A DNA stretch of 64,000 nt from Rhodospirillaceae bacterium (GTDB lineage: Bacteria; Pseudomonadota; Alphaproteobacteria; GCA-2731375), in assembly GCA_018660265.1 (NCBI GenBank), contig JABJKS010000065.1, positions 1-64,000 on the forward strand, in the 5' to 3' direction. Every line of letters starts with the position of its first letter. Within the stretch, counting starts at the first letter, position 1. The notes under the pieces were generated by a model. The model saw nothing but the letters and a program-made list of their open reading frames with translations, was not told the origin of the DNA and ran no database searches. Below are positions 3,136-17,603 of this stretch, one piece after another. A program made the position numbers and the translations under genes.

Positions 3136-4023
3136 ATGAAGAAATTTTTTCTTTTGATTGCTATCGGTAACTGCTTTGCATTTTTTGCTGTCTATCCTGT
3201 GTCGGCAATAGCAAGCGAGCCGATTATCTTGGTTCTTGGCGACGATTGGGATAAGCGCTCAATTGCACGCAACAGCCAAGCTTTCGAGAGAGTGCTCGGG
3301 GGAATTTCTAATTGGCTTATTCAGAGGAGGATCCGGGTTCTAGATGAACCTATGGTGCCGCAAGGTCGTTCCATTCATCAGCGAGTTCGCCGTACAAAAG
3401 AGAATACATTGGAGGTTGCCCAGGAGTTTAGAACTCCAGTGATTGATGCTGTTGTGGTACTTAAGATTTTTCCGGAGATAGATACGGTGGCAGGCGAAAC
3501 CCTGCTCAATGCATTGATAGTCGGCAATATCACCAACGTCTCAACTGGCAGCCTCATTGGAAACGTCGAGGTTAGACTGCCGGAATACCTCCCTGTCGAG
3601 AAGTCCTGTGTTGTTCACCGCGACTGCGTAATAGCAGCCATAGGGGACCAGGCTCAAAACTTAGGGCAGAAAGTCGGCGAGGTGCTAATGAAGTATTTTA
3701 ATCGCGCAATGGTGGTTGGGCGACCGAGCCTTTCTGAAGCGAACACTAGCTCTGAAGAACCGGCTTTGCTGAGGGTATACAAACTAACCTTTGATAGGTT
3801 TGATCCACCTGAATACCATATTGCGGAGAAATTCATTGTCGCATTTTCGGGTTACCATCGCCATGAGATACTTCTCAATATGATGCGACGTGTTGAAATT
3901 AGTTATGAAACGCGAAGTGGGGACGCGATGCTAAAGCGGAGCCTTCGCATGGTGATGGTTAATATGGGCATCGACGCTTCGGTTAGATGTATTAAACATA
4001 CATGTATTATTTCCAAAAATTAG
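3136..4023 (+). CDS. Exported protein with FlgT/CsgG-like features
   Basis: 295 aa with a clear signal peptide (MKKFFLLIAIGNCFAFFAVYPVSAIA). Residues about 30-200 show the alternation expected of a CsgG/FlgT-type domain: a conserved-looking strand (IILVLGDDW), a helix with FERVLGGISNWLI, RIRVLDEP, and DAVVVLKI. The last 90 residues form a separate small domain (LTFDRFDPPEYH..., FIVAFSGYHRHEIL..., LRMVMVNMGI). The family assignment comes from fold-like pattern only. It converges on the minus-strand operon that starts at 9995 and ends at 4074, and probably belongs to the same envelope function. Confidence 0.6.
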   Translation: MKKFFLLIAIGNCFAFFAVYPVSAIASEPIILVLGDDWDKRSIARNSQAFERVLGGISNWLIQRRIRVLDEPMVPQGRSIHQRVRRTKENTLEVAQEFRTPVIDAVVVLKIFPEIDTVAGETLLNALIVGNITNVSTGSLIGNVEVRLPEYLPVEKSCVVHRDCVIAAIGDQAQNLGQKVGEVLMKYFNRAMVVGRPSLSEANTSSEEPALLRVYKLTFDRFDPPEYHIAEKFIVAFSGYHRHEILLNMMRRVEISYETRSGDAMLKRSLRMVMVNMGIDASVRCIKHTCIISKN

Positions 4024-4073: not shown

Positions 4074-4661
4074 TTATTTTCCCCACAAAATATCCAGCAT
4101 AATTTTTTTGTTTTCTTTAAAGAACACCTCGATTTGGATTAAACAAGTCGATAACGCCATATAATTTTTATCGTCATAACCAAATGTAACGAGGTGGTTT
4201 TTGGCGATATGCACAAAACACTTCTCGAATTCAATATCTTCGGCTGCCTCTGGATATGAGAAAACCGTTGAATTCGTATAAAGAGCCTTGCGTTCAGCAT
4301 CACCAAAATTTAACAGACGCTCCACCTTCACAATGTTTTTCTTAAAGGTGAAAGTGGGCTTAATAGGACGGAGCCCAGCTTTGCGGCACTTTGCGTTTTT
4401 GATATTCGCAAGCTCGTAATCAGTGCAGACAATATTCGCGCCCGTCGGATCAAAATTGAAAACAAGAATAGAGCCATCTCCGACATAATGCTGGACGATC
4501 GTGTAGACCGGTTCTGAAAGTGTGTTTCTGCAAACATAAATTGTCTCAAAGGTGCCAGGCGTCGTCTCCTGGTCTAATGTCATACACCCCGCATCCGCCG
4601 TTCGAGGTGCAAAAAATAGCAGCACCGCGACGAGATAAAAAAATACTCGGCTAAAAGTCAT
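4074..4661 (-). CDS. Exported cysteine-containing protein, unknown function
   Basis: 195 aa with an N-terminal signal peptide (FFYLVAVLLFFAPRTADA, cleavage about residue 24). The mature protein has seven cysteines (GCMTL, YVCRN, IVCTD, KCRK, EKCFV, STCLI), suggesting disulfides in the periplasm, and a basic region around residues 90-110. I recognise no family. It is the last gene of a minus-strand operon; its start overlaps the end of the upstream gene by 11 bases, which implies translational coupling. Confidence 0.6.
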   Translation of the reverse strand: MTFSRVFFYLVAVLLFFAPRTADAGCMTLDQETTPGTFETIYVCRNTLSEPVYTIVQHYVGDGSILVFNFDPTGANIVCTDYELANIKNAKCRKAGLRPIKPTFTFKKNIVKVERLLNFGDAERKALYTNSTVFSYPEAAEDIEFEKCFVHIAKNHLVTFGYDDKNYMALSTCLIQIEVFFKENKKIMLDILWGK

Positions 4662-5301
4662 CTTTCAAAGTACTTTTCTTTCTGTAGCCAGTAGTACGGG
4701 TGATTTTTGATGATTTTCTGTTGTCAGTGTCCGTAGCCCTCGTACCCTTATTTCCGCGTTTAACCTCCGATTTAATTTTCTGCTTGGTATCAGCGGCGGC
4801 CTTAGAAAGGCTAGGTTTCCACCCCAATTCTACAAGGACAAATTTTTGACCCGTATCGACACATTCATCCAATTTTACCAACCCAGAGAGAACAGATTTT
4901 GTATCAGACCGCATAATATTAATTTGTGTTTCCAGTTCTCGGACCGATCCCTGTGTGTTGCCGTTTTGGTCCGTTACCTCTTCCTGCTCCATCATGTCTG
5001 TAGCGAGCGTTTCTGACCCTAAATTTTCCTCCATCCACGCTGAAAACGCTCTCTTGGCCTTTAATTCGGCCTTGCGCCGCGCCTTACTGATGAGACTTCT
5101 CTTTGGTGCGAGAAATGACGCATCGGCGTACATTACGATAGCGCGAAGTTTACCGTTTTCGTCAAACTTCGGCACAGCACCTTCAATGGCTTCTGCCTCT
5201 TTTTCAAATTCCACACAACTTGCATAGGCTGCACTGGGTAGCAACGCTGTCGTTGCTAGCAATCCAATAATCATAATTGCCGGCCCGCTTTTACCAATCA
5301 T
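4651..5301 (-). CDS. Exported protein, short paralogue of the 532-aa neighbour
   Basis: 216 aa: signal peptide, then a domain of about 150 residues (FEKEAEAIEGAVPKF..., RKAELKAKRAFSAWMEENLG, then a stretch ending DECVD, and LGWKPSLS) that is shared almost word for word with the N-terminal third of the next gene upstream. The remaining 40 residues are a Lys/Thr/Ser-rich, probably disordered tail. It lacks the C-terminal FlgT/CsgG-like part of its paralogue. Start and end overlap both neighbouring genes by 11 bases. The central 252 bp are nearly identical to the neighbour, a sign of recent duplication or gene conversion. Confidence 0.65.
   Translation of the reverse strand: MIGKSGPAIMIIGLLATTALLPSAAYASCVEFEKEAEAIEGAVPKFDENGKLRAIVMYADASFLAPKRSLISKARRKAELKAKRAFSAWMEENLGSETLATDMMEQEEVTDQNGNTQGSVRELETQINIMRSDTKSVLSGLVKLDECVDTGQKFVLVELGWKPSLSKAAADTKQKIKSEVKRGNKGTRATDTDNRKSSKITRTTGYRKKSTLKDDF
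4854..5105. repeat. Near-identical 252-bp repeat, copy 1
   Basis: By eye this segment matches 6445-6696 at all but two bases (C/T differences in the TTCTCGG/TTCCCGG and CCGTTTTGG/CCGTCTTGG words). Identity drops sharply on both sides, to perhaps 60-70 percent, although the flanks still encode homologous residues. It encodes the AFSAWMEENLG to DECVD part of the exported paralogues. Confidence 0.9.
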
Positions 5302-6889
5302 TTTTCACTCCTTCTTTCACTTTATCGTATGATTTGTTGGCTCGCCTCACCGATGTATCAACATCAACCCGGGATGAGGAATCAACTGAAACGCCGGTCG
5401 GCAATCCCCCTCCCAACTTGTTTGCGATGCGTTTTGCTAGGCGGATCCCGACTTTTTGGCCGAAGCTAGACGAGGGATTCGGCGCCCTTATCCTCAGTTT
5501 TCTAAATCGAAAACGTTGTGATAAGAGTATGTTAGTCGTCGCTACGTTTATGACTTTGACAGATATTTCGGCATTAAACACTGTGCGCTTAATCACCTGG
5601 GTCCCTAGTTGTTTTTGCTCGAGTTCTTGGTTGAAGGCGATTATTTCACTTACAATCATTATGTCGGCACCGGCTGTATTGCCTAGTCTTGCCAAATCGC
5701 TGATAGGCGAATTGCCAGAGGAAATCCTATTGAGTTCCTTCATCTGCTCCTTAACAAAACTTCTGTCCAAAACAGTAATTTTACGCGCCTGATTTAACAT
5801 GCTCTCAATTGTATCCTGAACGGCTCCATTAAACACATCCATGTCGCCTCGTATACCTCGAAGGGAGGGACTTAATTTCGGGTGCAATACAATTGCTCTA
5901 ACTTTATCGGGGTCAATCCCAGTCTCGTACTTTGCGAGGCTCACTTCCAAGAATACTTTAAACCCTGTAGAAGCATCATTTTTGCTCAGATATCTATACG
6001 ATTTGATCAGTCCTTTCGTCTTACTACTCAAGGCGCTAATACTGGATGAGGTCTCGATAGCAGTGCCCTCGGACGCTGACATAGAGGAAACCTCGATCGT
6101 AGTGGTGAGATCTAGTGTCTTTGTTTCGGAGGCAAATTGCTCGCCAAATACTTGCGAAATTGCGCTCCGGAGACCGTCATTAGTGGCCCGCCGCAAATCA
6201 ACGCCATTACCTTCAACTTTGACAACGATAACGTTTACTCCAGGCAATGATTTCCCACGATCGCTTTCGTTAGCTGAAGAATTTCTGGTGCCATTACTCG
6301 CGGAACTAGCCGCCCCGTTGTTTGCACTGCTAGATGGTGGCCTGTTGAGATTTGATCGAGATTGAATTATCTGCTTCGCATCTTTTGCTGCCGCTGATAG
6401 CGAGGGTTTCCATCCTAATTGAACGAGAACAATTTTTTCATTCTTATCGACACATTCATCCAATTTTACCAACCCAGAGAGAACAGATTTTGTATCAGAC
6501 CGCATAATATTAATTTGTGTTTCCAGTTCCCGGACCGATCCCTGTGTGTTGCCGTCTTGGTCCGTTACCTCTTCCTGCTCCATCATGTCTGTAGCGAGCG
6601 TTTCTGACCCTAAATTTTCCTCCATCCACGCTGAAAACGCTCTCTTGGCCTTTAATTCGGCCTTGCGCCGCGCCTTACTGATGAGACTTCTCTTTGCTGT
6701 TAAAAAGGTCCCTTCACCGTACATAAGAATGGCGCGGAGGTTGCCGGCATCATCAAATTTGGGCACGGCACCCTCAATGGCTTCCGCTTCCTTAATATAC
6801 TCATCACAGGATCCCGCGTAAGCGGTTGAACCAGCAATTAGAGCGAACGCAGAAACCAGAATAGCAATTTTTTGTAGTTTCTGGGTCAT
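5291..6889 (-). CDS. Exported multi-domain protein with FlgT/CsgG-like C-terminal half
   Basis: 532 aa. Signal peptide (residues 1-25), then the 150-residue domain shared with the 216-aa neighbour, then an Asn/Ser/Ala-rich linker (about 175-215). Residues about 220-340 resemble the LPP20/FlgT N-terminal domain (VIVVKVEGNGVD..., AISQVFGE, then GLIKSYRYLS and FKVFLEVSLA). Residues about 345-480 resemble a CsgG/FlgT nucleotide-like fold (ITVLDRSFVKEQMKEL, then LGNTAGADIMIVSEI). The C-terminal tail is basic and Ser-rich. Such proteins act in the periplasm in assembling envelope structures; the role here is unknown. The start is preferred at 6889 because the signal peptide begins there. Confidence 0.65.
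   Translation of the reverse strand: MTQKLQKIAILVSAFALIAGSTAYAGSCDEYIKEAEAIEGAVPKFDDAGNLRAILMYGEGTFLTAKRSLISKARRKAELKAKRAFSAWMEENLGSETLATDMMEQEEVTDQDGNTQGSVRELETQINIMRSDTKSVLSGLVKLDECVDKNEKIVLVQLGWKPSLSAAAKDAKQIIQSRSNLNRPPSSSANNGAASSASNGTRNSSANESDRGKSLPGVNVIVVKVEGNGVDLRRATNDGLRSAISQVFGEQFASETKTLDLTTTIEVSSMSASEGTAIETSSSISALSSKTKGLIKSYRYLSKNDASTGFKVFLEVSLAKYETGIDPDKVRAIVLHPKLSPSLRGIRGDMDVFNGAVQDTIESMLNQARKITVLDRSFVKEQMKELNRISSGNSPISDLARLGNTAGADIMIVSEIIAFNQELEQKQLGTQVIKRTVFNAEISVKVINVATTNILLSQRFRFRKLRIRAPNPSSSFGQKVGIRLAKRIANKLGGGLPTGVSVDSSSRVDVDTSVRRANKSYDKVKEGVKNDW
6445..6696. repeat. Near-identical 252-bp repeat, copy 2
   Basis: Partner of 4854-5105, same orientation, 1591 bp apart. Lies inside the 532-aa exported protein gene. 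The abrupt edges inside two otherwise diverged homologous genes point to gene conversion rather than a fresh whole-gene duplication. Confidence 0.9.
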
Positions 6890-6956
6890 ACCTAAACCTT
6901 ATAACAAAGCTATATAAGTAAATAACGGAGTACCACTACATTCCCTTTTTATGATG

Positions 6957-7637
6957 TTACATATCCGCCATAGCGCTAGCTAACCCACTCGTATCGGGCA
7001 CAGCTATATCGTTTTCACGCATGATTGCAGTAAGCTTTTGACCTGCGCTGACAGAGTTCGTCACAAAGCTAATTGCCTTCGGAACTAATACAGGAATATC
7101 TATGGCTGCTTGAAAGGCATCCATTCCATCTGTAATACCCGGCGCGCCCGCTCCAGAGGCGTCTGACCCAACCGATGATAATTGTGAAGCGGCCTTAACA
7201 CCTTTAAATAAAGCAGGTACATATTTTGCGCCGGCCTCTGCCATCTTCTTTTTTTGTTCAGCGTCTAGTTTTACCCCCGCCGCAAGTTTTTCATTAACAA
7301 GAGCGAGCGTAGAGCCGGATTTCGCATTGAACGAATCAAGATCGTCTGCGCCTAGGGCATCACCTTTTTCGCTTATGCTTTTAGCCTCCCCTCTCATTAT
7401 GGCCGCCTCTTGCTTGAGGCCTAAGGCTTCGGCCAAGTCAGCTATTACCTCGCCCACGACACCAGACTGTGTCGATAATTCTACTAAACCCCCTTTGAAA
7501 TTCTTTACGATACTTCCCCAATCACCGCCACCACCACCACCAATCTTGGGCAGGCTAAAAGCCAGAGCTTTGGATGCTGAAAATCCAAGTATGGTCACAC
7601 TAAAGGCACTCAGCAGTACAAATTCTCTACGATCCAT
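6957..7637 (-). CDS. Exported alanine-rich helical protein with Tat-like signal
   Basis: 226 aa. The N-terminus MDRREFVLLSAFS followed by a hydrophobic stretch and ALAF resembles a twin-arginine signal peptide (RR then hydrophobic residues, with a phenylalanine in the right place), though the consensus is incomplete. A Gly run (five glycines) follows at about residue 34. The rest is predicted to be helical and rich in Ala, Gly, Lys and Ser. I recognise no family. It sits in the middle of the exported-protein operon, 54-67 bp from its neighbours. A Sec signal is an alternative reading. Confidence 0.55.
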   Translation of the reverse strand: MDRREFVLLSAFSVTILGFSASKALAFSLPKIGGGGGGDWGSIVKNFKGGLVELSTQSGVVGEVIADLAEALGLKQEAAIMRGEAKSISEKGDALGADDLDSFNAKSGSTLALVNEKLAAGVKLDAEQKKKMAEAGAKYVPALFKGVKAASQLSSVGSDASGAGAPGITDGMDAFQAAIDIPVLVPKAISFVTNSVSAGQKLTAIMRENDIAVPDTSGLASAMADM

Positions 7638-7691
7638 TATAGTACTCTCTTTCTTTGTTGTTCAGTGAGTAGTTGGAGGCGTTTTAACTGG

Positions 7692-8792
7692 TCAACGAAG
7701 ACCTTTTTTCTGAAGCTGTGCCACGACTGTATCCATTGCAACTTTTACAGCGTCATTATAGGCGTTAGTCTGAGCTATGGAGGCGTCACCACCTTGGCCG
7801 TAAACTGCTTGCGGTCGAACCGAAGCAACGGTCTTGGCCCGACCGTCTGTCAACATCCACACTTTAAAGGAGATTTTTGCCAAAACTTTGACTGTGCCAC
7901 GTGCGGCATCATTTGTCGGGGCGCCAATGTCAATAATGCCCATTCCCAAAAATGACCAACCAGCATCGATTGCAGCACGCTTGTAGCTTTTTTCTATACG
8001 CTTTGGTAAGCGGCCGGATTTTTTCATCTTGCCAATAATTTCATCAAGAAGTGGAACATTATCCAATTCATCGATCCCCATGGGCTCAAAGCCGGCATCC
8101 ACTAACTGTTCCTCTACGGCATATGCGACTTCTTCGCTTATTTCTATGCTTGGTTCGTAGGATACATTATCGCGTTTACGTACTGTGCTCCCACCAGTAC
8201 GTTTGACTGTAAGCGACTTAGTTCTGCTTGAGTCTATTGAAGTTGTTCCATTCGACGCACTTTCCTCTTGAAGCGAGGCCGAACTTTCCGTCCCGCTCAC
8301 GGATGTTCGCTTCGCGTCATATGACTGTCTTGAAACTTCTTGACGTGCAATAAACATCGCTCCAAAGTCGCTTGCATCTCCCGCCAATTGATTGCCCGCC
8401 GCCGAATTATCGATAAAGAAAGCGTCGATAGCCCCGGGATCAATAGTCGCTACAATGACGACTTTGTAGGTTTTAGTTGTTTTATCGTCTTTATCTTGTT
8501 GAACCTTAGTCTCAAGGACGAAATCGTCGACGCTGTTATAAAACTCTTGCTCAAAAGATTTGAGCTGTCTCTTCTTCGCTGTTGGAAGCTTTGCAACGTA
8601 TTTTTTTAAGGCAATTTTCTTGGCTTCATAGATAGCCAGTTTTTTGGTTTCGCTGGAAAATATTGAATAATCGATGCTGCCAACAGCGGTGACGTGTACT
8701 GTTCCCTGCGCATCGACATTATTTCCCCCCCAAACCAAGGAGAAAAAGATCGCAATTGAAAAAATTGCCATGAGAAATGATTTTCGGTACAT
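7692..8792 (-). CDS. Exported protein with LPP20/FlgT-like N-terminal domain
   Basis: 366 aa with a signal peptide (residues 1-28). Residues about 30-125 show the FlgT/LPP20 pattern: VTAVGSIDYS, then KKLAIYEAKKIALKKYVA, and a final pair of strands (YKVVIVATIDPGAIDAFF). A Ser/Thr-rich linker spans about 150-205. The C-terminal domain (EEVAYAVEEQLVDAGFEP..., GWSFLGMGIIDIG..., VKVLAKISFKVWML) has the alternating pattern of a second FlgT/CsgG-type unit. Specific function is unknown. It is the second gene of the 9995-4074 operon, 27 bp after the first. Confidence 0.6.
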   Translation of the reverse strand: MYRKSFLMAIFSIAIFFSLVWGGNNVDAQGTVHVTAVGSIDYSIFSSETKKLAIYEAKKIALKKYVAKLPTAKKRQLKSFEQEFYNSVDDFVLETKVQQDKDDKTTKTYKVVIVATIDPGAIDAFFIDNSAAGNQLAGDASDFGAMFIARQEVSRQSYDAKRTSVSGTESSASLQEESASNGTTSIDSSRTKSLTVKRTGGSTVRKRDNVSYEPSIEISEEVAYAVEEQLVDAGFEPMGIDELDNVPLLDEIIGKMKKSGRLPKRIEKSYKRAAIDAGWSFLGMGIIDIGAPTNDAARGTVKVLAKISFKVWMLTDGRAKTVASVRPQAVYGQGGDASIAQTNAYNDAVKVAMDTVVAQLQKKGLR

Positions 8793-8819
8793 TATAGCCT
8801 CTAACCTTCCAAATAAATT

Positions 8820-9995
8820 CTAAAGGCCTGCATAGAAGACCTCTTGTTTGGCTCGTTTGATTTTTTCTGCTGCCTGAGGGTCTCTAGGAGAAGCTTCTTT
8901 CAGAAACCCTTTGTCAGGATTATTGCCAAACTGCTTAGCGACCTGGTTCAAAAGGCTGAGAAGGGATCCGGGAAAGTAAAATGTTTGATCCAATGCCTTG
9001 TCGACATGTACCACTCCACATGATTTTATAGTCCGGCGAAAATGTACATTTATAATCTCATCCAGCAAGCTGCTGATCCGCATGGCAATTGAAACAGCAT
9101 GACAAACAGTTTTTTGGGCGCCTTTAACTTTTTCCACTCGTTTGAATTTTTTGATATCCAACGCAATCCGAAAAGCAGGCTCTTCCGGTAGAATTATTTT
9201 AAAGTTAGAGGATTTAAATGTTGCCATCAATTCTCCGCCCAGTTGCGATTGCCCCATTGAAGGTATCAGAGGAGCTCCCGTTTCCTTGACAATATTAGCC
9301 TCAAAAATTTGGCCAATTTGCGCTTTCCAGGAGGATGGGTCATATCTTCGGGCAATAATTTCCCGAACTGTTTTCCCTAAATTGACTTCTGTAATCTGCA
9401 CATATTTAGCTGAAAAATTGAGGGGATTAATATCCTGGGCGCTTTCATGCAGCCTCTTGAATATATTTTCACCACGCGTCTCGTTAGCCAATAAATCGGA
9501 AAAAACAGAAAACTGTTCGCTCGAACTCGCTGGATGGTCCATCGTATCGGTATATTGAAGCACAACGGGTCGGGAAGCAATAAAACGTCCAGTTCCGAAC
9601 TCGAAAAACATCAGATTAGCAAAAATTCGGTAGACATGAATGAAACTTGTTTTGCCGTCAGTGATGTCTTGAGTTATGCCGATTGTCTCCCTGGCAATCA
9701 TCGGCGCCATAATAGTGCCTTCTACTTCTTGTGTGTCAATAAGATCCAACGATAGGTCAAAATTGCTATAGGTCTTACCTTCAAAATAGGGGCGGGCCAT
9801 TAAGTCAATGTTGCCATCCGGACAACGGTCTGTAGATCGACAAAGTAATTTGCTGGAATAGGGGAAAAGTTGATCGCGATCCTCCCATGAAATAAATCCC
9901 ACGCCTCCCCAGTAAACCTTTTTTGCAACGGCTGTCCCGGACGAAAAAACCAAGTTTATTAAAACCAACAGGGGAAGAATTTTTATGAGCGGCAT
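8820..9995 (-). CDS. Exported protein, first gene of the AT-rich operon
   Basis: 391 aa with a signal peptide (ILPLLVLINLVFSSGTAVA). The mature protein has mixed strands and helices with FANLMFFEFGTGRFIASRPV and a motif LLCRSTDRC near the N-terminus; there are four cysteines in all. I recognise no family, although its size and company suggest a partner of the FlgT/CsgG-like proteins downstream. The upstream gap (9996-10163) is AT-rich and is the likely promoter region for the operon down to 4074, but no clear promoter boxes stand out. Confidence 0.55.
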   Translation of the reverse strand: MPLIKILPLLVLINLVFSSGTAVAKKVYWGGVGFISWEDRDQLFPYSSKLLCRSTDRCPDGNIDLMARPYFEGKTYSNFDLSLDLIDTQEVEGTIMAPMIARETIGITQDITDGKTSFIHVYRIFANLMFFEFGTGRFIASRPVVLQYTDTMDHPASSSEQFSVFSDLLANETRGENIFKRLHESAQDINPLNFSAKYVQITEVNLGKTVREIIARRYDPSSWKAQIGQIFEANIVKETGAPLIPSMGQSQLGGELMATFKSSNFKIILPEEPAFRIALDIKKFKRVEKVKGAQKTVCHAVSIAMRISSLLDEIINVHFRRTIKSCGVVHVDKALDQTFYFPGSLLSLLNQVAKQFGNNPDKGFLKEASPRDPQAAEKIKRAKQEVFYAGL

Positions 9996-10163
9996 TTCGG
10001 ACCATTAATTTAGTAGAGGAAAAAAATACCGCTCCTCTCCCCAAAAAAAGAGCCGCATCGATCGCAACGCTTTACATATTACTAAACAATTATGTTCTTG
10101 TCCCGCAAAAGTTCCGGATACATTGGCCACGCCCCAGCCGCTGTGCGTTGAGCTGATATTTCA

Positions 10164-10772
10164 TTATCTCAAATCCGGCAGGCTGGCGAGAGTACGGCGG
10201 GCGAGGTCGTCGAGCAATGATGCTACGACGTCGTCGTTTCCTTGAAACTCCGCCGTGCGCAATACGGCAAGCGGTATAGAAAATAGCGAAAGGGGCGGGT
10301 CGCCGGAACTGCGGGAGGCGACCGCGCTGGCCTGCCAAAGTAAGGCGCCGTCCCGCGCCCGTGTTATCTCCGCCCCAATGCTGAGGTGCTTTTGCGACCA
10401 GACTAGCGCATTGTCATTTCCACCTCCCAAAACCTGCCATCTCAACAAGGCTGGGCACCTGGCGGCGGCGGCGAAATGGCGCATGTCGCCAGGATGATCC
10501 AGGTCTACGGCCATGGTGCGGACCAGCCTGCGTCTTTCATGGGGATGGATGACCCTGGTAACCCGCCCACTTAATTGCCGAGCTAAGGCGGCCGCAATGT
10601 CCTCGCCAGCTACAATTCCCGCTAGACCGTAACTTGGCAGAACCACCACACATTGGGGCGCTTCGTCATAATAGGCCCGCAATGGCCCGGTTGATTGGGC
10701 GATGGCTCCGGTCGTTGCTAGAAGGACGGACAACAGACCGCCCACGACTACGGTAAGGAAGCGGAGCACCAT
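10164..10772 (-). CDS. Exported protein, last gene of the Tol-like operon
   Basis: 202 aa with a signal peptide (VVVGGLLSVLLATTGAIAQ). The mature part has the layout of small periplasmic proteins related in pattern to the TolB N-terminal/GNA1162-like fold: PQCVVVLPSYG, a helix over IAAALARQL, a strand and helix (VIHPHERRRLV), ALLRWQVLG, then ARDGALLWQASA. This is a pattern match only. It lies 3 bp downstream of the TonB/TolA-like gene and is clearly part of the same transcript. Confidence 0.5.
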   Translation of the reverse strand: MVLRFLTVVVGGLLSVLLATTGAIAQSTGPLRAYYDEAPQCVVVLPSYGLAGIVAGEDIAAALARQLSGRVTRVIHPHERRRLVRTMAVDLDHPGDMRHFAAAARCPALLRWQVLGGGNDNALVWSQKHLSIGAEITRARDGALLWQASAVASRSSGDPPLSLFSIPLAVLRTAEFQGNDDVVASLLDDLARRTLASLPDLR

Positions 10773-10775
10773 GAT

Positions 10776-11714
10776 TTAACTGCCTCCACAGGAGCTTCTC
10801 AGTGCGACGGACCCGGCGATGGGCCTGCCGTCGACCTGAATATCGCGTAGCAAGATGGTGTGCTTACGTAGATAGTAGCGCGCCCTGATCTGCTTTGACC
10901 GGCCATAGCCACCCGCCAAAATTCGATCCAGACCGCCCAGCAACTGCGCATCAACCTGACGTGGAAAGATACGTAAGGCGGGGCTGCGTGGCGACAAACC
11001 ATGACGCCGGGCGATGGCACGTAAATCCTCCCTTTCAGCAGTGGTCAGGCGCCCAGTTGGCTGCCTGGCAAAGGCGCTATAACGATCCCCATTGAGTTGC
11101 CAGTTTTGCCCTGGCGGGCTTTTGGCAACGAATAGCTCCCCCACCCTCCGGCTCAGAGCCACCCGCATGCCCAGGCAATCCCGGAAGCGGCGGTAGAGCT
11201 CTGCTCGTTCGGCCGCGTCCTGGGGCCAGGCCAACTCAATTGCTGGCCCACTGCCATGCTCCAATAGGCGCAACAGCACGCGGCCTTGCGTCGCAGCGTC
11301 TACGGGGTCCGTGATCGCTGATACCGTATCGGTGGCTAAGGATTGCTGTGGTTTTACCGTCGGCGCCGATTTCCGTGTCAAGACGGGCTTCGTCTTTGCA
11401 ACCTGACTTGCCGTCGTCTTGACCTGACTGGGCCGCAAGGGTTGGACGTTCAACGTCCTTGAATGTGTCTTCGTTTCCTCTTTCGCCTTTGGTTGCAGGG
11501 CGCGGATGGATGATGCCGGAGCAAGCTTTGGCGGCGCAGGCAGTATGATGCTGCGGTTGCGAACGAGGGGCTTTGCCGCTGGTGCCTGTTGTCGCAGCAA
11601 TTCTGGTACCTTTACGGCTGGGTGTTGCTTCGGCAGCGGCGTGCTCATCAACAACGCCGCCACCAGGGCAGACAGCCCCATGGATGCACCGCCGATGATG
11701 AATTTGCGGGCCAC
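10776..11714 (-). CDS. TonB/TolA-like single-span protein with proline-rich spacer
   Basis: 312 aa. One N-terminal membrane span (residues about 6-27, GGASMGLSALVAALLMSTPL), then a Pro/Lys/Ala/Ser-rich extended spacer to about residue 135, then a folded C-terminal domain of about 170 residues (GRVLLRLLEHGSGPAIELAW..., LYRRFRDCLGMRVALSRR..., YLRKHTILLRDI). This layout is that of TonB or TolA, which carry energy from an inner-membrane proton channel across the periplasm, but the C-terminal domain is not one I recognise. The upstream MotA/TolQ/ExbB-like gene supports the reading. Two cysteines in the C-terminal domain could form a disulfide. Confidence 0.55.
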   Translation of the reverse strand: MARKFIIGGASMGLSALVAALLMSTPLPKQHPAVKVPELLRQQAPAAKPLVRNRSIILPAPPKLAPASSIRALQPKAKEETKTHSRTLNVQPLRPSQVKTTASQVAKTKPVLTRKSAPTVKPQQSLATDTVSAITDPVDAATQGRVLLRLLEHGSGPAIELAWPQDAAERAELYRRFRDCLGMRVALSRRVGELFVAKSPPGQNWQLNGDRYSAFARQPTGRLTTAEREDLRAIARRHGLSPRSPALRIFPRQVDAQLLGGLDRILAGGYGRSKQIRARYYLRKHTILLRDIQVDGRPIAGSVALRSSCGGS

Positions 11715-11717
11715 GGC

Positions 11718-12242
11718 TTATCGCAATCCGCTGCTGGCAAACAGCAGCTCCATTTCCTCACTGAGAGCATGTAGTTCTTGGCGACGTTGAACGGGTGTCA
11801 TGAATTTTGGTTGTTCCTTGATGGCAGCAGCTGGGCTCGTTGCCAGGACCTCGGATCGACGCCGTTCAACGGCGGGGTCATCATCGATGGGCGGTGGGAT
11901 AAGATTTGGGACCGTGGTGCGGGCGCTATCTGCCTTGGTGGCGAGCGCAGGCGAGGTCAACTCGGGTCGGGGCGGCACCGCCTCTCTGACCGCCACTTCG
12001 ATAGGCGGCGTCTGGGCCGGCGGCGACGCAACAGCGGAAGGAATAGGCGCCGCCGGTTCTTGCCGCATCACCTTGTCGATGACCGTGGCGATGGTCCGCC
12101 GTCCAGCTTCAACAGTGCTCTTGGCCGCCATCGTGACATTGTGCGGCACGCCGCCTTGGTTCAGCGCGCGGGACGACTGGCTACCATGGAATAGATAAAA
12201 TAGTGCGCCGACGACAACCAGATTGAAGATTAAGAACCGCAT
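11718..12242 (-). CDS. Single-span proline-rich membrane protein
   Basis: 174 aa with one membrane span at the N-terminus (FLIFNLVVVGALFYLF), a helical stretch (about 40-65), a long Pro/Ala/Ser-rich region (65-130) and a short helical C-terminus (RRQELHALSEEMELLF). No OmpA-like or classical ExbD domain is visible. Its place between the channel-like and the TonB-like gene suggests it fills the ExbD/TolR slot or links the complex. It overlaps the upstream gene by 13 bases and is 3 bases from the next. Confidence 0.5.
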   Translation of the reverse strand: MRFLIFNLVVVGALFYLFHGSQSSRALNQGGVPHNVTMAAKSTVEAGRRTIATVIDKVMRQEPAAPIPSAVASPPAQTPPIEVAVREAVPPRPELTSPALATKADSARTTVPNLIPPPIDDDPAVERRRSEVLATSPAAAIKEQPKFMTPVQRRQELHALSEEMELLFASSGLR

Positions 12243-12763
12243 GGGAGCACGCCTCCTTTGTCCGTTGTTTTTGCCTCAATCCAGGCCGCACTGATAGAAA
12301 GCAGAGCGCGCAACAGGGCCGATGTGGGTAGCCCGATAACCGTCGTCATGAAAGCCAGGCTGAAACGCTCGGTCAGGCCACGGATGACCTCTTGCACTGT
12401 ATCGGGCGTCAGACTCTGTCCGGCCAGTTCGCCGATCCCCAGGCTGATGCCAAATAGGGTGTACGTAAGGGCCAGCGTTGCTACGCCATTGGCCGCGTGC
12501 AGGCCGGCTTCATGCCAGGCTTGGCGTTGTTGCGGGTTTAGATCGCGGACTAGCAAACGCTGCCAGCAATACAATGTGGTTAGGATCAGAACCGATAACA
12601 GGCCCATGAAGACCAGACCCAACACCCGGGCAGCCCAAGCCAGAATTTGTCCCGGTTCCGGCGCGCCCAGGGCAAGGGCAAGGGCCAGGGCCAAGACGAT
12701 GGCGCCCAGAAAAAAACTCAAGGCGCGGGAGCCTCCGCCCAGTAGGGTGATGGCGGCGGCCAT
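12230..12763 (-). CDS. MotA/TolQ/ExbB-family proton channel-like protein
   Basis: 177 aa with four predicted membrane spans (about 12-33, 41-64, 87-110 and 132-157). The second half matches the family core: a span with TLALTYTLFGISLGIGELAG, a short loop (TPDTVQEVIRGLTERFS) and the final span LAFMTTVIGLPTSALLRALL, close to the ALxTTxxGLxxSxxxR pattern. Family members form pentamers that use proton flow to drive TolR/TonB/MotB-type partners. Unlike classical members the cytoplasmic loop between spans 2 and 3 is only about 20 residues. Sits 1 bp after a small exported-protein gene. Confidence 0.65.
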   Translation of the reverse strand: MAAAITLLGGGSRALSFFLGAIVLALALALALGAPEPGQILAWAARVLGLVFMGLLSVLILTTLYCWQRLLVRDLNPQQRQAWHEAGLHAANGVATLALTYTLFGISLGIGELAGQSLTPDTVQEVIRGLTERFSLAFMTTVIGLPTSALLRALLSISAAWIEAKTTDKGGVLPCGS

Positions 12764-12764
12764 C

Positions 12765-13160
12765 CTAGCGCCGTCCCTGTTTGGCCGACATCAGGTTTTG
12801 GGTGGAAATCCCCAACTGCCCGAGCCAGGTATCCGCCATGGATCGATTTTTCTCGACCGAGGCATGTACCAAAAACGTTAGGTCATAGTTAGCAAAGGCC
12901 TGGCGTACTTTGGGTGTGTTGCGCCCAACGAGTTTGTCGTCGCGCAGGACCATACGTTCCAGATCCAGCAAGCGTCGTTGCCCTCTCTCAAGACGCAGGT
13001 GGCGCTCTGCGGGCGAGATCTCTCCATCCAGCATGGTTTCAATCAACAAGGCGCGTTCCCGTTCCATATTGGCCAGGGTATCGGCCTGAACCGGGGCTGT
13101 GGCGGCGCAGGCGGTCAGAAAGGCGACCATGGGTAGAACCTTTTTTAGGGCTTGTTTCAT
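12765..13160 (-). CDS. Small exported helical protein
   Basis: 131 aa with a signal peptide or lipobox (PMVAFLTACAATAPVQA); the LTAC could be a lipobox, giving a lipoprotein, or the cleavage may come after VQA. The mature part is charged and helical (MERERALLIETMLDGEISPAERHL, ERGQRRLLDLERMV). No family recognised. It shares the operon with the MotA/TolQ-like gene. Confidence 0.5.
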   Translation of the reverse strand: MKQALKKVLPMVAFLTACAATAPVQADTLANMERERALLIETMLDGEISPAERHLRLERGQRRLLDLERMVLRDDKLVGRNTPKVRQAFANYDLTFLVHASVEKNRSMADTWLGQLGISTQNLMSAKQGRR

Positions 13161-13185
13161 TGTCGAAATCCTTCTGTTTGAGCGG

Positions 13186-14046
13186 TCAATTGAGGAAATA
13201 TTTTACGGCGGCTGCTGGTCCGGCTGTGCGCAGGACATCGCTATCAGTCAGCTCCGCGTCCATCACCTGTTCCGACAAAGCCATGGCGTCCAGGGCCACG
13301 AGCTTAGCCATGTAACCAAAGATGTTTTGCTCTTGCTCCAGGATCGCGATGCTGGCCTGGGTATCGGCCAACATCTGGCGGATAAAATCTGCCTTGTTGG
13401 CTGGCCGCCCGGCCATTTGCGGCTGGTTGTTCATGGGATGCTGACGGATGGCGGCCCCCAAAGACGCCATCGCCGACATATTGGCCGAGTATTCCTGGGC
13501 GTATTTGCTTTCAGGCACCGTCGGGGTTGTCAGAACGGTTAGATCAACTTTGGCCAGCGACCCCTTGAAGCGCTCCCGCGCCTGGTGTTGTTGTGCTACC
13601 AGTTGCACCCGCGCAGGCGTCATCGCACCTTTCGCCTGACCAAGCTTTACTAAAAGCCGCTCCAGGGCCCGTTGCTTGGTCTCCATGTGGCGCTGGCGCA
13701 GGTCGACTTTGCGTTTCATCAGCGTGATGAATTTCCGCTTTTGTGCCAAGAATTGATGGCGCAACTCCACCTGCAACTCGCCATCTGCCTGATCAATGGC
13801 GGTGCGTAGATCATCCAGGGTTTGCCCCTTGAGACCGATTTCGCTATCCAAATCCTGTATGGCCAGCGCGAGGGCTGATTGGGCGAAGTCGTGATCCAGG
13901 GATTTTTTCAGATAGTTCGCCGGCAACTTGATTAGTTTTTCGCTGGCTACCGGCTGCCAATCTGGCAGATCGGCGCCCTTGCCTGCCGCCAAACTCGGTG
14001 CCGCAATGGCCAAAGCCAGGGCGAGGCTGGAGCCGATCGAAGGCAC
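13186..14046 (-). CDS. Exported coiled-coil protein, first gene of the Tol-like operon
   Basis: About 286 aa. After a hydrophobic signal (LALALAIAAPSLAAG) come long amphipathic helices (about 45-150, with runs of Lys, Arg, Gln and Glu in heptad-like spacing) and a second helical part (200-275). Probably a periplasmic coiled coil. The only start is a GTG at 14044-14046; the signal peptide then lacks the usual basic n-region and no good ribosome site is seen. Because a foreign FGE fragment begins on the other strand at this very point, the original start may have been cut off. Confidence 0.5.
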   Translation of the reverse strand: MPSIGSSLALALAIAAPSLAAGKGADLPDWQPVASEKLIKLPANYLKKSLDHDFAQSALALAIQDLDSEIGLKGQTLDDLRTAIDQADGELQVELRHQFLAQKRKFITLMKRKVDLRQRHMETKQRALERLLVKLGQAKGAMTPARVQLVAQQHQARERFKGSLAKVDLTVLTTPTVPESKYAQEYSANMSAMASLGAAIRQHPMNNQPQMAGRPANKADFIRQMLADTQASIAILEQEQNIFGYMAKLVALDAMALSEQVMDAELTDSDVLRTAGPAAAVKYFLN

Positions 14047-14998
14047 CTATGTGGCGGTACGCAATGCCAATGTCCGTGCCAAGCCTGATGTTGATGCACT
14101 GAAGGTAACGATGCTAGCCAAGGGCAGCAGGGTTCATGTTGCGGGCAAAGTGGCCTCGAGAGACTGGCTGGCGGTAGACCGTGACGGCGAGCGCCTAGGC
14201 TATGTGTATTCAAAGCTGCTGCAAGACCTCGAGGAGGCTCGAGCCGAGACGCTCGCGAGAGCGAAGGCGAGGCGAGCTGATGCGGAGCTGGCGGCGCGGG
14301 CGAAGCGAAACGAGGCAGTAGTGTGGTGGGACAGCATCAAGGAGAGCAAGAACCGGGCTGCCTTCAGGGCCTATTTGGTACAATATCCGAAGGGACGTTT
14401 TGCCCCCCTTGCTCACCTGAAGCTGGAGGAGCTGAAGCCCCGGCAACTGGCGACGATTATCCCGCCAAAGGTGACGGTGACGAAGCCCGTGAAGCCGGCG
14501 GTTGGCGTCTATAAGAGCCAAAATCCTGGCGAGACATTCAAGGATTGCAAGGATTGTCCCGACATGGTGGTAATTCCGCCGGGTCGGTTCCGCATGGGTG
14601 ATCTGTCTGGCGGCGGCACCGACGATGAAAAACCCGTACACGATGTGCGCATCAACTACAGCTTTGCAGTTGGCAAGTTCGAGGTGACCTGGTCGGAATG
14701 GGATGCTTGCGTCCACGCTGGCGGTTGCAATACTTATGCTCCAGAAGGCTTTCGTGTTGACGCGGGTTGGGGGCGTGGCCGGCTCCCAGTGATAAATGTC
14801 AGTTGGGATGATGCGAGGGCCTATAATGATTGGTTAGGCAGGAAGACGGGCAAAAGCTATCGCCTGTTGAGCGAGGCTGAATGGGAATATGTCGCTCGAT
14901 CAGGAAGCGCTTCGAAATATAGCTGGGGCGATGACTTTGACCCAGCGAAAGTTGCCAGCGGCAGCCATTCGACGAAAACTGTGGGCAGTTATGGGCAT
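14030..14998 (+). pseudogene. Fragment of an SH3 plus FGE/SUMF1-domain gene, truncated at both ends
   Basis: The frame encodes a bacterial SH3 domain (EPIEGTYVAVRNANVRAKP to GYVYSKLLQD), a Lys/Glu/Arg-rich helix, a short module ending in YPKGRFAPLAHLKLEEL, then the start of a formylglycine-generating-enzyme-like domain (MVVIPPGRFRMGDLSGGG, FEVTWSEWDACV, INVSWDDARAYNDWL, YRLLSEAEWEYVARSG). It breaks off at TVGSYG, just before the family's GLYDMxGNVWEW box, and continues only as antisense of Sel1 repeats. Upstream of 14030 the frame is antisense to another gene, so the N-terminal part is lost too. The missing C-terminal part occurs at 2067-2420. Confidence 0.7.
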
Positions 14999-15625
14999 AG
15001 ACATAATCCTGTGTTACGCCTCGTCCTGCCGCATACAAATAACCCAGATTGGTTTGGGCCGTGGCATGCCCCTGTTCGGCAGCAAGAGTGTGCCACTTCA
15101 CTGCAGCCTTATAGTCTTGTGGGACACCTCGTCCTGAGTAGTACATTGCACCCAGATTGTTCTGGGCATCGGCATGCCCTTGTCCGGCAGCTAGGGCGTA
15201 CCACTTCACCGCAGTCTTATGGTCCTGTGGGACACCTTGCCCATCCCCGTACATCGAACCCAGCATGTTCTGGGCATCGGCATGCCCCTGCTCAGCAGCG
15301 AGGGTGTACCATTTCACCGCCGTCTTCTGGTCCTGTGGAACACCTTGTCCACTGCGGTACATCACACCCAGCATGAATTGGGCATCGGCATGCCCCTGTT
15401 TTGCGGCAAGGGTGGACCACTTCACCGCTGTCTTATAGTCCTGCGGAACACCCTGTCCCACTGCATACATCACACCTAGATCGTACTGGGCCTCGGCATG
15501 CCTTTGTCCGGCAGCTAGGGCGTACCACTTCACTGCAGCCTTATAGTCTTGTTGGACACCTCGTCCTGAGTTGTACATTGTACCCAGCATGAATTGGGCA
15601 TCGGCATGCCCCTGTTTAACGCCAT
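14991..15625 (-). pseudogene. Sel1-repeat (TPR-like) gene fragment
   Basis: Five to six tandem Sel1 repeats of 36 residues (108 bp), each with the pattern AAVKWYTLAAEQGHADAQ followed by LGxMYxxGxGVPQD. Such proteins form solenoid scaffolds, often in the periplasm. The reading frame opens inside a repeat (a stop lies just upstream of the word HGVKQGH, and no signal peptide precedes it) and it stops being Sel1-like after TQDYVYAH at about 14991, where the usual MWFNLA continuation is replaced by antisense of the FGE fragment. Both ends are therefore missing. The repeats are very similar to each other at DNA level. Confidence 0.75.
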
Positions 15626-16211: not shown

Positions 16212-17441
16212 TCAAACCCGCAACGGCACAACAACATCGTCGTCTTCGGTGCCATTGACCAGATACATCAGCCGCCGGGACCATTTCTCCAGAGCGGCCC
16301 GCTTCTCGTCAATCATGGACCACTGGTCATAGACCTCTGCCGTGACGCCGCGTGGCTTGTGGCCCAAGACGGCACCCGCGTCGAGGCGGCTGATTTTCAG
16401 GTCGCGGCGCATGGCCGTTAGGACCGTTCTGCGGATGTCGTGGAAGGTCCAGCCTGTTACACCCGACAATTCGTCCAGGCGGGCCTTGGGGCGGCTGTAA
16501 CCGTTAACGTGCCCCGTGCCGGTGACAGTGAACATGAAATCGCAGTCACCCTGCTGGGGGATGCTCTGTATGATGTCCCATGCAGTGGTGGTTATCGGCA
16601 CCTCGTGGTTTTGATTTGTCTTATACCTCGCTTTGGGGATGACCCAGGTGACCTGTCCGTCATCTTCCTGGCGAAACTCCGACCACCGCATCCCAGCCAC
16701 CTCCGTTCGCCGTGCGCCAGTAAGCATTAGCAACCTCACCCACGGCCCCCATGGGTAGCCCATCACGCCGTCTTCGCCGACATCCCCGGCAGCATTCCAG
16801 ATGGCCACTAATTCCTCGTCGGTGAGGTTGCGCTCACGCGGCTCCTCACGATACTTCAGTGGGATATGTTGCGCGGGGTTGTTATCGATGACCAGTTCGT
16901 TGACGCAGAATTTGAAAAATGTGCTGATCAACGAAACAACGCGGATAGAGGTAACGGCACCATTCTTAAAGGCGCGGTCGCGGACGGCGTAGATGTCTTT
17001 ACGTGTTATTTCGCCGATGCGGCTTCTTCCCCAGGCTGGCAGGATGAAGCGGTCAATGTAGCTGTTGTATTCGCGTTGGGTGTTTTTGCGCTTCTTATCG
17101 ACATGCTCCCGGCGGAAGCGTTCGATCAGAATTTCGACCGTGTCCATTGGCACCGCCAGCCGTTCCTGGCGTTCTGCAGCCGGGTCTTTTCCGTCGCGGA
17201 CATCGGCGCGGATGCTGTTGGCTTCGCTGATGGCGTCCTTCAGGGGTATCTCGCTGCACGGCCCCAGTGTCAACTTGCGGATTTTTCTATGACGCCGGTA
17301 GCGGACCGCCCAACTCCGGGCAGCACTAGGCTTGGCCTGGATGATTAGGTACAGTCCGGGGCGCACCGCGATTTCCTGGCGCGTGTCGGTGGCGGGCACC
17401 TTGGCGACATCAGTGTTCTTGGTGATCTCGGCGCTACTCAT
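16212..17441 (-). CDS. Tyrosine recombinase (phage/island integrase)
   Basis: 409 aa from ATG 17441 (chosen because the more distal start at 17492 adds an unconserved tail). N-terminal arm-binding domain of the P4-integrase kind (VRPGLYLIIQAKPSAARSW, then RKIRKLTLGPCSEIPLKDA), a core-binding SAM-like domain (about 110-200), then the catalytic domain with LTGARRTEVAGM (first Arg), HDIRRT (His-x-x-Arg), LGHKP and the nucleophile Tyr in EVYDQW. All catalytic residues are present. These enzymes integrate genomic islands. It points away from the truncated deacetylase gene next to it, so the junction near 17.65 kb is a likely island edge. Confidence 0.92.
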   Translation of the reverse strand: MSSAEITKNTDVAKVPATDTRQEIAVRPGLYLIIQAKPSAARSWAVRYRRHRKIRKLTLGPCSEIPLKDAISEANSIRADVRDGKDPAAERQERLAVPMDTVEILIERFRREHVDKKRKNTQREYNSYIDRFILPAWGRSRIGEITRKDIYAVRDRAFKNGAVTSIRVVSLISTFFKFCVNELVIDNNPAQHIPLKYREEPRERNLTDEELVAIWNAAGDVGEDGVMGYPWGPWVRLLMLTGARRTEVAGMRWSEFRQEDDGQVTWVIPKARYKTNQNHEVPITTTAWDIIQSIPQQGDCDFMFTVTGTGHVNGYSRPKARLDELSGVTGWTFHDIRRTVLTAMRRDLKISRLDAGAVLGHKPRGVTAEVYDQWSMIDEKRAALEKWSRRLMYLVNGTEDDDVVVPLRV

Positions 17442-17603
17442 GGCAAATCTCTTGGGGAAACTTGGGGGAAACAAAGGAAAATCTTGTACCATGATATTGA
17501 ATTAAACGCTATGGACATCAAGAACGTGGGTGAGCATAGATGGGAAGGCACATAATATCGCAGAAAATGGCCATTTCTTAGTGCCAAGTAAAAGTTTTGC
17601 CGG

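Follow-up and report, generated by a model that had tools for sequence, protein, structure and literature searches.

What do the six closely packed genes at positions 10164–14046 of a 64,000-nucleotide stretch from a Rhodospirillaceae bacterium (contig JABJKS010000065.1; this whole stretch is the window below) encode, and do they form one machine? A preliminary description had read them as a possible Tol/Ton-like envelope machine. The genes, here called A to F, make up one end of a set of 12–13 genes, present in many proteobacteria and conserved in order. On balance, we think it probable that this uncharacterised system is a new stator-powered machine that spans the envelope and would exert force on it or remodel it, by the mechanism proposed below. 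The packing and gene order given by the preliminary description were recovered in full, with six open reading frames (ORFs), all on the minus strand, filling the segment:

13186–14046, minus strand: A, exported coiled-coil protein of 286 aa, its 5′ end cut off by a junction (ORF; orthologues 45–80% identical)
12765–13160, minus strand: B, small periplasmic protein of 131 aa, exported, with an NMERERA motif (ORF; signal peptides of orthologues)
12230–12763, minus strand: C, four-span stator-like protein, remote MotA/TolQ/ExbB/ZorA relative, 177 aa (PADLOC ZorA, hhalign chain, residues, AlphaFold2)
11718–12242, minus strand: D, periplasmic protein of 174 aa, proline-rich and with a single span; its C-terminal helix motif is conserved
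10776–11714, minus strand: E, 312 aa, single span, proline-rich linker and conserved C-terminal α/β domain in which two cysteines are invariant
10164–10772, minus strand: F, exported protein, 202 aa, with weak GNA1162 similarity, a lipoprotein in many orthologues
10031–10070, minus strand: possible terminator hairpins with a T-run, 3′ of F (consensus scan, which alone is no functional evidence)

The genes are separated by 25, 1, 3 and 3 bp, with C and D overlapping by 13 bp. Scans of all six proteins against Pfam and NCBIfam gave nothing above the cut-off.

The grouping of A to F is not due to chance, because the same order and strand recur: the genome has a second copy, about 17 further loci share the arrangement, and six genomes of other classes have it for A to E. 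Window proteins were compared by tblastn with loci fetched through C, and hidden Markov models (HMMs) were then built from these loci. By tblastn, the second copy lies on contig C109, and the same order is shared by four sister genomes and by less closely related metagenome-assembled genomes. By the HMMs, about 18 loci other than the window (the C109 copy and about 17 others), from many alphaproteobacterial families, have A to F side by side in one orientation, and several more have A to E. Order is kept in genome G002 (L023) even though its C is only ~31% identical; F is the least conserved of the six. Across the class, C was detected in 21 of 385 alphaproteobacterial genomes, representing 13 families (three weak matches excluded). 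Extending the search to the phylum added six genomes from outside the class, which hold A to E (D sometimes by position only) and most of the upstream genes introduced below. A search of a plasmid collection gave no match. The six-gene order, which the preliminary description had proposed to look for in other alphaproteobacteria, is thus widespread there, and the notion that the genes never co-occur is refuted.

Elsewhere the full order is TolR/MotB-like gene, lytic transglycosylase(s), P577, P190, P440, a lipoprotein gene (Lp) and then A-B-C-D-E-F. With the HMMs, this complete order, including one or two lytic transglycosylases, was found in L017, L024, L114, L115, L119, L120 and L123, some genes of the last being in pieces. 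The C109 locus (L020) has the whole set minus P577, which is found on contigs C21 and C33; in L127 the same genes are arranged as two divergent blocks, and in L213 two blocks are swapped yet kept together. Only C and the TolR-like gene, as an adjacent pair, occur at 3640–4775 of L126, beside a caspase-SH3 protein and integrase-like genes. The gene set and its conserved order are therefore direct observations. That the six genes act as one machine, as had been supposed, stands in so far as they co-occur in fixed order; they are not the whole of it, because genes for the likely stator partner and for peptidoglycan, protease and lipoprotein components lie upstream in other genomes. A to F as a complete machine was accordingly rejected, the set elsewhere having 12–13 genes. 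No family model was found that matches the set as such, nor was a description of it found in the literature, in a search restricted to open-licence papers that is hence no proof of novelty.

Among the upstream products, the lytic transglycosylase is recognised by its SLT domain (E 2.5e-21), and P577 and P190 are cytoplasmic proteins. P440, whose gene is absent from the window, has a cytoplasmic N-terminal Lon-like part followed by a span and a periplasmic part. It has no match in Pfam; in hhalign its N terminus aligns with Lon_C (Lon peptidase S16) at 71% (P 3.8e-5, reversed control 0.37), and both residues at the positions of the Lon catalytic dyad, Ser and Lys, are invariant in 17 of 17 sequences. 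The N terminus of P440 is predicted to carry a Lon-like domain with a Ser-Lys dyad, and peptidase activity is putative.

Central to the proposed machine is C, in which the family motif noted in the preliminary description, LAFMTTVIGLPTSALLR, was located. Judged from its sequence, C is a remote MotA/TolQ/ExbB relative, because it matches ZorA in the PADLOC library, connects to the family through an intermediate profile and retains conserved threonines. The ZorA2 profile was matched by 16 of 20 C orthologues (best E 2.2e-5), ZorA accounts for 12 of the 16 PADLOC families matched, and the best matches are ZorA membrane-core profiles, in the region of transmembrane helices 3 and 4 (TM3–TM4). With ZorA2 as the nearest recognised profiles of C, a Zorya-like phage-defence system comes to mind. 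It is very improbable: the window C itself matches ZorA weakly (E 0.008), the set has a fixed multi-gene envelope composition, and no match to ZorB, ZorC, ZorD or ZorE was found with PADLOC among nine other proteins of the set, on which ground Zorya identity was rejected.

The profile chain linking C to the stators runs through an intermediate MotA_ExbB family, which aligns with C in hhalign at 85% (P 5.8e-6; 0.18 when reversed and 0.24–0.87 with shuffled columns) and with TolQ at 97% (P 8e-11). Two members of this family were first chosen through a search with C, so that some selection is involved; with the family limited to two members picked by Pfam alone, the match to C has P 0.03. Forming the closest bridge between C and TolQ is a MotA_ExbB protein of ~270 aa in L138 and L146, in a cluster that by eye also has kinase-, vWA-, FHA- and PP2C-like genes. 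An automatic alignment matches T102 and T141 of C to the threonines in the TolQ sequences GTVWG and FATALG. Residue T102 is present in 31 of 31 sequences and T141, as Thr or Ser, in 30 of 31; T102, G105, F138 and P146 are invariant in the 31. An ion role is known for these threonines in TolQ and ExbB, and is putative in C. The AlphaFold2 model of C comprises four long helices (predicted local distance difference test score 74, predicted template modelling score 0.61). When genomes were searched loosely with models of C and of the TolR-like protein, the weak matches showed no visible enrichment in stators, and a PDB sequence search with both profiles returned nothing. A separate TolQ/TolR-type pair is encoded on contig C87 of the window's genome.

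Encoded at the other end of the full set, outside the window, is the TolR/MotB-like protein, which has one N-terminal span (AMTEIALALAMAFFSIMVL) with an acidic residue near its cytoplasmic side (Glu in 19 and Asp in 1 of 20 sequences). From this residue, the topology and gene adjacency, we infer that it is the stator partner of C. The remote kinship of C and the invariant residues resembling an ion site in C and in this protein are established directly.

Ion flow, force transfer and the purpose of the system we infer as follows. In a stator driven by protons or sodium, C would make up the ring, with the two central helices supplied by the TolR/MotB-like protein, and ion flow past Glu12 of the partner and Thr102 and Thr141 of C would drive movement. 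The single-span proteins D and E would transmit this movement through the periplasm, both to Lp and F as lipoproteins and to CsgG/FlgO- or OmpA-type partners. Lytic transglycosylases would open the peptidoglycan for the passage of D and E, and the cytoplasmic side (P577, P190 and the Lon-like domain of P440) would control the machine. The window, with its partial second copy, would need partner genes from the C109 copy.

Several results weigh against this proposal. The window C has no match to PF01618 (MotA_ExbB), for which the best value among 20 orthologues is E 0.1, in two of them. Direct hhalign comparison of C with TolQ and ExbB gives P 0.03–0.05, weak though in the correct register, and that with MotA is weak. 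In Foldseek, ~23 of the top 50 rows for the C model are stator subunits, at E 0.26–1.1, which is not significant, and the VIA scores against ZorA (Z 7.9–9.6) lie inside helical-bundle noise. The cytoplasmic loop of C is much shorter than in known stators. For the partner, ExbD/TolR (PF02472) and MotB (PF13677) have no match in 16 members, and its profile scores P 0.02–0.035 against TolR and MotB, not clearly better than the reversed control (0.03–0.04), in a test of little power because TolR against MotB fails it too. For the C-terminal domain of E, fold searches with a low-confidence model gave no convincing match. The MotA/TolQ/ExbB-like character given to C by the preliminary description, which had tied it to a match with models of that family, thus fails by the letter of the Pfam and NCBIfam models and holds in substance as remote kinship, through the ZorA profiles, the hhalign chain and the threonines.

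Some of these features would suit a different reading, in which C and its partner are a scaffold or sensor derived from a stator and lacking motor function, and the system uses its lytic transglycosylases and Lon-like protein to regulate peptidoglycan and outer-membrane remodelling, with no ion-driven work. C has no cytoplasmic domain of stator size, the partner no recognised ExbD/MotB domain, and the SLT and Lon-like domains are the sole recognisable catalytic parts. We consider this unlikely: in each of the two proteins, few positions are as conserved as the putative ion-site residues, and a pure scaffold would have no need of them.

The preliminary description had B as a small exported protein or lipoprotein. 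Export holds, its orthologues having an ordinary signal peptide; these signal peptides have no lipobox, and B as a conserved lipoprotein was rejected on that account, the lipobox-like LTAC being found in the window copy only. F is a lipoprotein in many orthologues and not in the window's genus; its description as TolB/GNA1162-like stands as regards export, the GNA1162 match being weak and below the cut-off (E 0.06). The C-terminal domain of E, whose fold it had been suggested to predict, reaches moderate model confidence in parts only, with no convincing structural match; marginal rows for a histidine-kinase ATPase and an HPF-like fold (Z < 4) are not believed. C180 and C309 of E are invariant in 29 of 29 sequences, and because of this they are likely to form a structural disulphide. 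Transducers of the TolA/TonB type have an SHLS-type His motif in their membrane span (PMC12204202). No conserved membrane His of this type was found in the spans of D or E, and the proposed relationship of E to TonB/TolA is not supported: only the layout is alike, neither an SHLS-type His nor a fold match having been found.

Flanking the system frequently are genes for CsgG/FlgO-like proteins with a peptidoglycan-binding domain, for DUF4384 and OmpA-domain proteins and for exported caspase-domain proteins with SH3. The genes downstream of F in the window (4074–9995) include a CsgG-like protein, and a further exported protein lies beyond them:

8820–9995, minus strand: exported protein of unknown family, 391 aa, downstream of F; no family match, system membership putative
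7692–8792, minus strand: exported protein of unknown family, 366 aa; no family match, system membership putative
5291–6889, minus strand: CsgG/LpoB-like exported protein, 532 aa (PF03783, E 1.9e-5)
3136–4023, plus strand: exported protein of an unnamed family, recurring beside the system in L116, L117, L127 and L129

In L017 the gene 3′ of F encodes a homologue of the CsgG/LpoB-like protein (28.5% identity, LpoB domain). At 4651–6889 of the window, two adjacent exported proteins of 216 and 532 aa have near-identical N-terminal regions, which suggests a recent duplication. A secretion or surface-export apparatus, in which a CsgG-like outer-membrane pore, the lytic transglycosylases and inner-membrane parts would export a surface polymer or protein, would account for the repeated flanking by CsgG/LpoB/FlgO-like and DUF4384 genes, and secretion systems commonly have lytic transglycosylases. 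Such an apparatus is, however, clearly improbable, as nothing among the scanned proteins was recognised as an export ATPase, a secretin, a pilin or a dedicated substrate and the CsgG-like genes are variable neighbours outside the conserved core.

The copy in the window is partial, with a recombination junction cutting A; contig C109 carries a fuller one. The GTG start of A directly follows an in-frame TAG and lies within the signal-peptide region of its orthologues, which begin further upstream, so that A is without their first residues. The exported coiled coil of the preliminary description is accordingly present as an ORF and lacks the beginning of its signal peptide. Abutting it on the opposite strand is another truncated gene:

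13928–15376, plus strand: SH3 and truncated FGE-sulfatase gene, an apparent caspase-SH3-SUMF1 remnant, with the junction near 14040

Because the GTG start follows a TAG inside the signal peptide and an opposite-strand truncated gene of SH3-SUMF1 type adjoins it, the natural reading is that the operon was severed at A by recombination. The truncated gene resembles caspase-SH3-SUMF1 genes on contig C21 of this genome, where the same SH3-SUMF1 arrangement comes after an exported caspase-domain protein next to P577-P190-P440. An SH3 and truncated FGE-sulfatase gene also stands beside A in L247 (3381–5386), as in the window. A Sel1-repeat protein at 14799–15590 has a frame overlapping the degenerate 3′ half of the opposite-strand SUMF1 ORF. 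An integrase-like gene, recognised by eye, is present near the junction at 16212–17492 and fits a mobile or rearranged region.

It is possible, though rather doubtful, that the window copy is a truncated and perhaps silent duplicate that was moved by recombination and is inert alone, which would be compatible with any reading of the system. The joining of A at its signal peptide to the truncated SH3-SUMF1 gene and the integrase-like gene agree with this, as does the absence here of the genes from TolR-like to lipoprotein that are present on C109; A, B and most of C have also been lost from a related copy in G007. Against it, the six frames are intact, and the ratio of non-synonymous to synonymous substitution rates (dN/dS) between the window and C109 copies is 0.07–0.30 per gene, a value reflecting the whole history of the pair and not just the time since the rearrangement; the missing parts could also be supplied in trans.

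More tentatively, at somewhat below an even chance, we suggest that the system represents a new class of ion-driven envelope machine in several classes of Proteobacteria, combining a minimal MotA/TolQ-type stator, built-in peptidoglycan opening, a membrane-anchored Lon-like protease and recurring exported caspase-domain partners. The ion-driven envelope motors whose tasks are known are few (flagellar MotAB, ExbBD, TolQR, gliding and Zorya). This one would add a further motor branch, with a minimal stator-like subunit that the standard family model is not sensitive enough to detect, and would give a dozen hypothetical proteins a shared context at once; the defined gene list and exact residues are available for testing.

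Compared with known systems, the set is closest in outline to those powered by TolQ-like proteins. As in Tol-Pal (TolQ-TolR-TolA-TolB-Pal-CpoB), there is a four-span TolQ-like protein, a single-span partner with an acidic membrane residue, a single-span proline-rich periplasmic protein and lipoproteins, with an OmpA-like gene 3′ of F in a few other loci (L116, L117 and L125). Its proteins nevertheless miss the Tol models, and TolB and Pal do not mark the cluster as Tol-Pal, no TolB propeller being recognised among the scanned proteins of the window and other loci; lytic transglycosylases, a Lon-like domain and two cytoplasmic proteins are added. With the ZorA/ZorB stator it shares the membrane core to which C is best matched, and differs in the absence of a ZorB-type OmpA partner, of ZorC/D/E and of a long cytoplasmic tail on C. 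TolQ-like motors are also coupled to vWA-type force transducers, unusual single-span partners (PMC12204202); the present set has a similar pairing of motor and partner, with no vWA domain recognised and with a different gene complement. The layout of a stator with a single-span proline-rich protein recalls Exb-Ton, although in E neither a TonB C-terminal domain nor a conserved membrane His was found and no linkage to TonB-dependent receptors was seen for this set. By the tests made, the system is a member of neither Tol-Pal nor Exb-Ton, both of which it resembles in outline.

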